The notes beneath the pieces are model-generated. The model saw nothing but the letters and a program-made list of their open reading frames with translations. It did no database searches and was not told where the DNA came from. A DNA stretch of 33,906 bases from Candidatus Fimimonas merdipullorum (GTDB lineage Bacteria > Bacillota > Clostridia > Christensenellales > CAG-314): contig DVOC01000018.1 of the NCBI GenBank assembly GCA_018713905.1, positions 1 through 33,906 on the forward strand, written 5' to 3'. Made by a program: the position numbers and the translations under genes. This document shows, in pieces, positions 1,764-5,363 of this stretch (positions are counted from its first letter, which is position 1; each line of letters opens with the position of its first letter).

Positions 1764-3815
1764 TTATTCTTCTTCGTGAATCTTTTTGGCTTCCTCTACG
1801 ATTTTAGCCACGTTTTGAGCGGGCACTTCCTCGTAGCGGGCAAAACTCATTTCAAATTTACCTCTGCCCTGCGTCATGGAACGCAGATCCGTTGCGTACT
1901 TCAAAATTTCCGAAAGGGGCGCTTCGGCAGTTACCAGCTGCTTGCCGCCCACTACCTCCGTACCCATGATACGTCCGCGGCGCTTGTTCATGTCCCCCAT
2001 GACGTCGCCCAGATAGTTGTCGGGAACGGTGATTTTGAGTTCGTAAATAGGTTCGAGCAATACCGGACCTGCCTTTACGCAGCCGTCCTTGTAGGCAAGC
2101 TTTGCCGCCATCTGGAAGGCAATGTCCTTGCTGTCTACGGGGTGAGAGGAGCCGTCGAACAGCGTGCATTTGAGGTTTACCATCGGGTATCCTGCCAGAA
2201 CGCCCTTCTGAATGGCATCGCGCAAGCCCTTTTCCACAGAGGGTATGAACTGACGGGGAACGGTGCCGCCCACAACGGCGTCTACAAATTCGAACACGCC
2301 GTCCTCTGCGCCCGGTTCAAAACGCACCTTGCAGTGTCCGTACTGTCCCGCGCCGCCCGACTGCTTTTTGTGCTTGCCTTCCGCCTCGGCGGATTTGCGA
2401 ATGGTTTCGCGGTAGGGAATACGGGGATCGTTGAGCACCGCTTCCGACTTGAACTTGGATTTGAGCTTTTTGCATATTACGTCCAGCTGAGTTTCGCCCA
2501 GACCGGAAAGTATCATTTCGCCCGTTTCGGGATCCTTTGTGACGGTGAAGGAGATATCTTCGTCTTTAAGACGGGAAAGACCGCCGAACACCTTGTCTTC
2601 GTCCCCCTTGTTGGCGGCGTACACCGCGCGGGAATAGACGGGACGGGGCAGTTCCACGGCGGGAATGACGATATCCTTCGTTTCCGACAGAGTGTCGCCG
2701 GTGGAGGTTGCGGAAAGTTTGGTAAGGCAGGCGATGTCTCCTGCGCACGCGCAGTCGGCGGGTTCCTGCTTTTTGCCCTTTACAAAGTAGACGGTGCTTA
2801 CCTTTTCCGTCACGTCCTTGGTGGTGTTGTACAGCGTGACGCCGTTTTTCAGCGTGCCGGACACCACTCTGAACAGGCTGAGCCTGCCGAAGCTGTCGGC
2901 AATGGTTTTGAATACGCGCAGCACGACGGGAGCCTTTTCGTCCGCCGTAAGCACTACGTCTTCGCCGCCCTTTTTGGCATTAGTCTTGGTGTGAGAGGCG
3001 TCGGGAAGCATTTCCACTATTATGTCCATAAGCGCCTTTACGCCCTTGTTTGCCGTTGCGGAGCCTGCCACCACGGGCACAGCCGCACAACTGCCGACGC
3101 TGGCGGAAAATCCCTTGTACACTTCGTCCGCCGTAAGCGTTTCGCCGTCGAAAAATTTCATCATCAGTTCGTCGTCGCTTTCCGCCGCCACTTCCACTAT
3201 GCTGTCGTGCAAAGAGGAGACCTGCGCAGCCAGTTCGGCGGGCACATCGCCCGTCTTGTCGGTGACGAGATCGACGTATATGCCGCTGATAACGTTGGCG
3301 TAGCCCGTCATTTTGTGTCCTTCCAGCTTGGGAACGACTATGGGCGCTACCTTGCCGAACTTCGCCTTTATGGCGTCTACCGTGGCGGGATAGTTGGAAT
3401 TTTCCTTATCTGTGCCGTTGACAAATATAAGCGCGGGAATTTTGTGCTCGGAGCAGTACTCCAAAGCCTTTTCCGTCCCCACCGACATGGAACCAGTTGC
3501 ACCGGTGACAATTATCGCACTGTCGGCAACGGACAGCGCTTCCAGCATTTCGCACTCGAAGTCAAAATAACCCGGAACGTCGATAACGTTTATCTTGACG
3601 CCCTTGTAGGTGCAGTTCGCCACGGAAAGACTGATGGAAATTTTGCGCGCAATTTCTTCCGCGTCGAAGTCCATAGTGGAGTTTCCGTCGTCCACTTTAC
3701 CGAATCTGTCAAGTGCGCCGGCGTTGTACAATATCGCTTCCGCAAGGGAAGTTTTGCCTTCGCCGCTGTGCCCGATTAAAGCAATGTTTCTGATGTCTTT
3801 TGCCAATACTGCCAT
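1764..3815 (-). CDS. Elongation factor G-like protein (EF-G2/TetM-superfamily translational GTPase)
   Basis: 683 aa; GHSGEGKTS P-loop, DVPGYFDF G3, EF-G domain II-V architecture to the C-terminus (PVLLEPIYELKITVPDNYLGDVMGDMNKRRGRIMG). SD GGAG upstream of ATG. Confidence 0.93.
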   Translation of the reverse strand: MAVLAKDIRNIALIGHSGEGKTSLAEAILYNAGALDRFGKVDDGNSTMDFDAEEIARKISISLSVANCTYKGVKINVIDVPGYFDFECEMLEALSVADSAIIVTGATGSMSVGTEKALEYCSEHKIPALIFVNGTDKENSNYPATVDAIKAKFGKVAPIVVPKLEGHKMTGYANVISGIYVDLVTDKTGDVPAELAAQVSSLHDSIVEVAAESDDELMMKFFDGETLTADEVYKGFSASVGSCAAVPVVAGSATANKGVKALMDIIVEMLPDASHTKTNAKKGGEDVVLTADEKAPVVLRVFKTIADSFGRLSLFRVVSGTLKNGVTLYNTTKDVTEKVSTVYFVKGKKQEPADCACAGDIACLTKLSATSTGDTLSETKDIVIPAVELPRPVYSRAVYAANKGDEDKVFGGLSRLKDEDISFTVTKDPETGEMILSGLGETQLDVICKKLKSKFKSEAVLNDPRIPYRETIRKSAEAEGKHKKQSGGAGQYGHCKVRFEPGAEDGVFEFVDAVVGGTVPRQFIPSVEKGLRDAIQKGVLAGYPMVNLKCTLFDGSSHPVDSKDIAFQMAAKLAYKDGCVKAGPVLLEPIYELKITVPDNYLGDVMGDMNKRRGRIMGTEVVGGKQLVTAEAPLSEILKYATDLRSMTQGRGKFEMSFARYEEVPAQNVAKIVEEAKKIHEEE

Positions 3816-3911
3816 TGTTCGTACTCCTGAATGTTATTTTCGTATTGCATGCCGCACCGCTTGCGGTTTTGCAAACCACAACTGTAATTATATACTATCT
3901 CTCGCAATTTT

Positions 3912-4604
3912 TCAATAGGCATTTAATAATTCTTCCATAAAAAATCGATATTTTTGGCTGACGTCGGCTCCGCTTTGGGAAACTAATTGCACTGTACTCT
4001 CATCATTAACGCATTTTTTGTATTTTTTGCGTATTCTGCGCGTCACGCCGTCCAGACTGTCGAACACGTGCAGATTGGGAAATACGCTGCAAAAACAGCT
4101 TTTGTACAAGCTGAGGCTGCTGCCGGCAAGAGCAATGCAGTCGAAGGCTCCGCACAAAGGCTCGGCGCATTGCGAAACGTATCCGGCAACGTCGCTTCGG
4201 CTTGCACCCTGTTCGGCAAGCAGCGGAAAGCGAGGCATGGGCAGGGGAATCACTCCCGCAAACCTGCCTGCGGCGTTTACGGCGGCGGTTTCGCCGCATA
4301 CCAGCACCTTGGACGCCGTGTATGCCGAGGCGTGCACCACGGGAGGATCGCAACGGAAGACGTTTTCGCCCCCGCGCGAGCAGCAGGAAAGGGCGGCAGA
4401 GGACAGCACCACTCCCTCCGCGCCGAGGGAAAACGCCTTTTTGCAGCAGTCGGCGGCAATGGCGGACAGCTGCGAAGGAGATTTTTCGCCCAGAGGAAAC
4501 TGCTCGTCCAATATATACGCCGTATAATCTGCGGCAACAGAGTATTTAAGTTTGCACAGGGTAGCGAAGATGCCCACGCCGTCGTCGAATACGAATATTT
4601 TCAC
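3912..4604 (-). CDS. Glutamate racemase (MurI)-fold protein lacking both catalytic Cys motifs
   Basis: GTG start at 4604 with SD AGGGAGG just upstream; 230 aa KIFVFDDGVGIFATLCKL...FPLGEKSPSQL...VVLSSAALSCC...CIALAGSSLSLYK...VFDSLDGVTRRI, collinear with MurI motifs FDSGVGG / PYGxKS / CNTAS / GCTHYPL / DSG. The track ORF start at 4724 is upstream of this SD. Confidence 0.65.
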   Translation of the reverse strand: MKIFVFDDGVGIFATLCKLKYSVAADYTAYILDEQFPLGEKSPSQLSAIAADCCKKAFSLGAEGVVLSSAALSCCSRGGENVFRCDPPVVHASAYTASKVLVCGETAAVNAAGRFAGVIPLPMPRFPLLAEQGASRSDVAGYVSQCAEPLCGAFDCIALAGSSLSLYKSCFCSVFPNLHVFDSLDGVTRRIRKKYKKCVNDESTVQLVSQSGADVSQKYRFFMEELLNAY

Positions 4605-4937
4605 GGTATACCTCCCTTTTGCGTCTGAAAATATTTTACTTGCTTTTTGCCAAAAAAATACCCTCCCGTAACGCGCGGCACGGCGGAGCAGGACAAGAAG
4701 AGCGACAAAAAGCGGTATTGACACTCTGCGGGTTCAACATCCGGCATTCGTGCGCACGGCAAGGAGGTCGGGCGCGTTGCGGCGAACGTACACACTGCCG
4801 CAGAGGTCAGCCGTACGCAAAAAGACAACGCGCAGAGGTCGTCACGCATTTTTCAAAACTCGGGCAAAAACTTGTGACGGATTTGTCAGCAAAGCCGCGA
4901 TTTCGGAAAAACCGTAGCAAAGCGGAATACAAAGCGC

Positions 4938-4983: not shown

Positions 4984-5363
4984 GGGGGTGTTTCAAGATT
5001 CGCCCGGCGTTGAGGGAGATTCGATAAGCGTGTCGCAGCGCCTACTGCGTACCAAGGCAAAACTAAATTAAACGCTAACAATAGCAACTACAGCCGTTCT
5101 TACAACAGAATGGCAATCGCTGCGTAACAATTAAACGCGCGCATCGTCCCGAGCCATTACACACGGCGCGGTGTTCGGTGTAAGACAGTGTGTATCGCGG
5201 TTTGTCCGCACGGCTTTGCGGCAAAACGTTAAATTCTTTTAGTCTTGGCGGTGTTTTTCCCGTTTGTCGGAAAGGCATCGCGACGGTTGAAGGCAAACTT
5301 TGCACGGAGAAAATCGAGTAGTCCTGCGTCGGTACACGGGTGCAATTCCCGTCACCTCCACCA
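4984..5363 (+). ncRNA. ssrA: Transfer-messenger RNA (tmRNA)
   Basis: 5' GGGGGTG pairs with 3' CACCTCC-A-CCA as a tRNA-like acceptor stem; encoded CCA (5361-5363); T-arm ACGGG-TGCAATT-CCCGT; internal tag ORF ending ...NRMAIAA-stop (TAA 5125-5127). Confidence 0.92.

Follow-up and report, generated by a model that had tools for sequence, protein, structure and literature searches.

The window (the whole 33,906-nucleotide stretch of DNA analyzed here) carries a gene for a protein of the glutamate racemase (MurI) family in which both catalytic cysteines are missing. Taken as a full explanation of the data, it appears reasonably probable that this is the native murI of its Clostridia family, passed down vertically, which survives as a conserved pseudoenzyme in three genera: that of the window (g1) and the related g10 and g11. 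MurI, an essential enzyme of wall synthesis and a drug target, has also been reported to play a noncatalytic role by a mechanism that is unclear. A lineage that keeps a MurI unable to racemize by the known mechanism beside an active MurI, and that has Cys-intact relatives at the same locus, offers a direct way to test for a noncatalytic function of MurI in which the essential supply of D-glutamate is no confounder. The pseudoenzyme likely arose when an essential enzyme was replaced laterally, and its family is unrecognized by Pfam.

Family membership and loss of the catalytic residues

A single pseudo-MurI sequence is barely recognizable as a MurI and, taken alone, is a near-orphan. A Pfam search with the 230-residue protein gave no match, and the NCBIfam model TIGR00067 (glut_race) matched residues 3 to 47 only (E = 0.018). 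A profile of 25 orthologs matched the Aquifex MurI 1b73 over profile positions 2 to 194 (E = 1.9e-9), and the same profile with five sister-genus homologs matched it at E = 1.2e-25. At the level of the ortholog profile, the protein is thus a homolog of MurI over most of its length. The structure predicted by AlphaFold2 from the window protein and 24 orthologs (pLDDT, 94.8; pTM, 0.91) is that of the two-domain MurI fold. Its best 48 Foldseek matches in the PDB are all glutamate racemases (TMq, 0.70 to 0.86), and the matches after these are other members of the Asp/Glu racemase superfamily. An earlier, sequence-only reading of this DNA had proposed a MurI-like fold on the basis of motif order; the ortholog profile aligns in the register that it gave, and the unrelated fold that would have spoken against it did not appear. 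Chance resemblance to MurI is ruled out by profile, fold, and synteny.

In the profile alignment, the MurI motif FDSGVGG corresponds to FDDGVGI, with the catalytic Asp kept as D7 and Ser8 replaced by D8. The first cysteine motif, C70-N-T, corresponds to S69-A70-A71, and the second, C178-T-H, corresponds to G161-S162-S163; Glu147 of the Aquifex enzyme is retained as E131. Ser8, Asn71, Thr72, Thr179, and His180 (Aquifex numbering), the substrate-binding residues of MurI structures, are D8, A70, A71, S162, and S163 here. The cysteines of (A)CNT and GCTH are absent at both aligned sites in all 28 Cys-less copies. Within the genus, position 161 is Asn in most orthologs and otherwise Asp, His, Ser, or Gly, never Cys, and S162 is invariant.

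Two other cysteine placements were considered and rejected. A shifted register through ALSCC, which the sequence-only reading had named as a possible refutation, is not borne out by the alignment, where C74 and C75 lie outside any conserved Cys column. C156 (in FDCI), the only invariant Cys, might be a displaced catalytic Cys, yet intact enzymes have it as well, directly before GCTH. Because S69 and G161 occupy the catalytic sites and Ser8, Asn71, Thr72, and His180 have been lost, racemization by the known two-Cys mechanism is not expected, as had been anticipated. Judged by its clear homology to an enzyme family, the loss of essential catalytic residues, and the conservation of the gene, the protein is a pseudoenzyme. 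With its orthologs it is most suitably classed as a pseudoenzyme family derived from MurI, the members of which are MurI homologs failing the defining catalytic features.

Features of the pseudo-murI locus (window coordinates)
Feature	Position	Strand	Remarks
Cys-less MurI-fold gene (pseudo-murI)	3912–4604	−	230 aa; GTG start at 4604, TGA stop to 3912
Shine-Dalgarno sequence GGGAGG of pseudo-murI	4611–4616	−	Read directly in the sequence
Codons D7 (catalytic Asp retained) and D8 (in place of substrate-binding Ser8)	4581–4586	−	
Codon S69, first catalytic Cys position (Aquifex Cys70)	4398–4400	−	Ser in 24/25 genus members
Codon E131 (Aquifex Glu147)	4212–4214	−	Kept in 23/25 genus members
Codons G161-S162-S163, second catalytic motif (Cys178-Thr-His)	4116–4124	−	
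Basic C-terminal helix, residues 184–197	4014–4055	−	R189, K193, and K197 invariant in genus
EF-G-like translation GTPase gene, conserved downstream neighbor	1764–3815	−	Own promoter
Promoter of EF-G-like gene, TTGAAA-N17-TATAAT	3887–3915	−	Window site matches 11/12
Promoter −10-like element, GTAAAATA	4632–4639	−	Upstream of pseudo-murI
tmRNA gene	4984–5363	+	RF00023, 105.9 bits
450-aa ORF	361–1710	−	Apparent fusion

Ancestral locus, descent, and a second murI

Intact Cys-less copies were present in all 25 sampled g1 genomes (window included), in two g11 genomes (G034 and G063, with motifs ADSN/GNSC and TDSN/GNSR), and in one g10 genome (G033, with motifs ASPT/DDCI). In the remaining eight genera of the family, (A)CNT is retained, as is GCTH wherever the copy is complete (the G061 and G036 copies are fragments). 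Among 248 genomes of the order, the A3 profile recovered no Cys-less copy outside the family, and its two matches there are both Cys-intact (ACNT and GCTH/GCSH). A search of genome contigs with the single protein gave no match, and a profile search of genome contigs gave 24 relatives, all of the window's genus. Two of the 24 (L063 and L085) belong to public MAGs labeled Corallococcus sp. (in NCBI, a myxobacterium of the Myxococcota), but they match contigs of g1 Clostridia, and these records probably bear the wrong name.

Neighbor clustering recovered a common arrangement in g1 and the sister genera, consisting of a divergent rpsT (bS20), murI or pseudo-murI, and the EF-G-like gene. Because this neighborhood is shared, the Cys-less gene occupies the ancestral locus of murI. 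The sister genera have a two-Cys murI at this place, and nothing else in their genomes matches MurI strongly. The sequence-only reading is thereby extended: the gene is apparently the native murI, demoted in its ancestral locus, and no random divergent paralog. In the window itself, rpsT is absent from its usual place, where a tmRNA gene divergent from pseudo-murI is found instead; this gene was unreported by ARAGORN, and its tag, read by eye, is ANNSNYSRSYNRMAIAA. The EF-G-like GTPase belongs to subfamily NF009381, scores below the cutoff of the canonical EF-G model TIGR00484, and is probably a second EF-G. Farther along the same strand, the 450-aa ORF apparently joins NUDIX, GNAT acetyltransferase, and C-terminal domains, the last of which is a separate gene of about 130 aa in relatives.

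The Cys-less g1 copies form one clade (support, 100/100) that falls among the native MurIs, grouped with the g11 and g10 copies (93/87) and adjoining g7, with the g10 copy on a very long branch. A tree of rpoB and rpoC, which holds no g10 because neither gene is present there, places g1 and g11 together at 75/66 with the intact g6 very near, and an EF-G tree joins g11 to g6 instead. The simplest reading is that the cysteines were lost once across g1, g11, and g10. With support for the deep nodes this modest (93/87, and 75/66 for g1 with g11), parallel loss in the three genera could also account for the distribution.

The sequence-only reading had proposed looking for a genuine murI at another place in the genome, and one was found: in the window's genome, a second murI (G000:C17:2453-3040; E = 2.5e-40) carries both ACNTAS and GCTHFPL. 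Canonical second copies lie away from the locus in 24 of the 25 g1 genomes and in G063 (g11) and G033 (g10), such that the Cys-less copy and a second murI occur together in 26 of the 28 genomes of the three genera. No second murI was found in G004 (C10, L067) or G034 (C33, L092), whose assemblies are 93 to 94% complete. There the Cys-less MurI alone was detected, and the second gene is perhaps missing from the assembly. As another route to D-glutamate, D-amino-acid transaminase (TIGR01121) had no match in the 25 g1 genomes, a sample outside which the sister genera and G034 lie. The second copies form one clade (100/99), which groups at 100/99 with MurIs of the class's other orders, the class MurIs in the tree having been chosen as best matches to a second copy. 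The native copies and the same-order MurIs lie apart from this clade, which suggests that the second murI was gained laterally, in a pattern that fits one gain.

The joint occurrence in 26 of 28 genomes might also mean that the Cys-less copy is a regulatory subunit that heterodimerizes with the acquired, active MurI. We find this improbable, as the two copies belong to widely separated branches, two genomes have no detected second copy, and co-occurrence is expected anyway if a dead copy needs a working one beside it.

Constraint, expression, and proposed role

The intact frame and good Shine-Dalgarno sequence remarked on earlier proved to be general, with ORFs of 220 to 233 aa across g1, all intact in the sample, at 38 to 54% identity in most members. 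In usable close g1 pairs, dN/dS was about 0.06 to 0.23 (NG86), with dS mostly 1.1 to 2.7 and so near saturation, and this substitution pattern indicates that pseudo-murI is under purifying selection within the genus. An 8-nt element, GTA[AC]AATA, precedes the start by 34 to 55 nt in 20 of 25 g1 orthologs, compared with 0.6% of shuffled upstream regions; this conserved −10-like element suggests that the gene is expressed. Loss of catalytic residues is what a decaying pseudogene without function would also show, but ORFs that are all intact, dN/dS well below 1, and a conserved Shine-Dalgarno sequence and upstream element leave that reading with hardly any credibility, and conservation together with dN/dS largely rules it out.

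The constrained parts of the protein are the cleft (DDG, SSVALS, and NSSMN) and the C-terminal helix. Former pocket positions, a set chosen by homology, have a mean entropy of 0.78 in g1 against an average of 1.51 (permutation P = 0.005), and therefore the cleft has been remodeled under constraint and is not decaying. Such remodeling, with D7 and S162 invariant and E131 and S69 nearly so, would also suit a new enzyme that catalyzes a different, thiol-free reaction in the old cleft through D7 and E131 with the new, conserved S69, S162, and N165. We hold this to be unlikely. The second Cys position varies among five residues and the genus has no conserved second base, the first Cys position is Asp in g11, and both sites differ again in g10. 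Moreover, Cys-to-Ser changes at the two sites in the related OpaE left 4.8% and at most 0.3% of activity (PMC12661438).

The C-terminal helix (residues 184 to 198) has a mean charge of +5.8 in the Cys-less copies of g1, +5.0 in g11, and +4.0 in g10, compared with +2.6 in intact native copies, +0.8 in MurIs of the order, and −1.1 in g1 second copies, although few independent lineages lie behind this trend. Its invariant basic residues are spaced by four. The Cys-less copies have retained or reinforced a basic helix, which is compatible with the native MurI having been a moonlighting DNA gyrase inhibitor, for which modulation of gyrase would be the sole remaining role. MurI of Escherichia coli, Bacillus subtilis, Mycobacterium tuberculosis, and Mycobacterium smegmatis inhibits gyrase, and racemization and inhibition appear to be uncoupled (reviewed in PMC10886550). 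By this analogy, a gyrase modulator is conceivable, if rather a long shot.

Adjacency to a translation gene is weak evidence on function. The EF-G-like gene is served by a conserved promoter of its own, with a TTGAAA..TATAAT site in 22 of 22 orthologous gaps examined, and the two genes therefore need not form one operon. A translation role implied by a shared operon is weakened accordingly, the more so as the neighborhood is older than the Cys loss.

The best-supported reading of fold, Cys loss, and conservation is still a noncatalytic binding or regulatory protein, much as the sequence-only reading had suggested with its pseudoenzyme of possible regulatory or binding function. Probably a laterally acquired murI took over D-glutamate supply, the native copy was thereby freed from catalysis, and it was retained for a noncatalytic role, either old or newly gained. 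This role would be carried by the remodeled cleft and the basic C-terminal helix, which probably bind an anionic ligand or partner, and signaling may proceed via domain closure or direct contact. Candidates for what is bound include UDP-MurNAc-Ala or another wall precursor, nucleic acids, and acidic proteins. More tentatively, the ancestral MurI may have had two jobs, of which the lateral racemase took one and left the native copy as dedicated carrier of the other; we offer this as a possibility that deserves attention and would not yet bet on it. If it is true, these genera hold a natural separation of function, with the elusive moonlighting role of glutamate racemase isolated in the dead MurI.

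Relation to known MurI proteins and the racemase superfamily

In the open-access literature searched, the terms "glutamate racemase" and "pseudoenzyme" did not occur together in any paper, and neither a Cys-less MurI nor a MurI pseudoenzyme emerged from related searches. The closest known system is glutamate racemase itself (TIGR00067; structures 1b73, 5w16, and 2jfq), with which the pseudo-MurI shares its fold, motif order, equivalents of D7 and E147, ancestral locus, and descent. It differs in that both catalytic Cys and the residues Ser8, Asn71, Thr72, and His180 are replaced and in that its C-terminal helix is basic.

Changed chemistry on the same superfamily fold has precedents in arylmalonate decarboxylase, hydantoin/allantoin racemase, and OpaE. 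Arylmalonate decarboxylase keeps at least one catalytic Cys. The same is true of OpaE and allantoin racemase (PMC12661438). In contrast to these superfamily members, the pseudo-MurI has neither. The gyrase-inhibiting MurIs (E. coli, B. subtilis YrpC, and those of mycobacteria; PMC10886550) provide a precedent for a role uncoupled from racemization. These proteins are active racemases, whereas the pseudo-MurI is predicted to have given up that activity while keeping the MurI fold.
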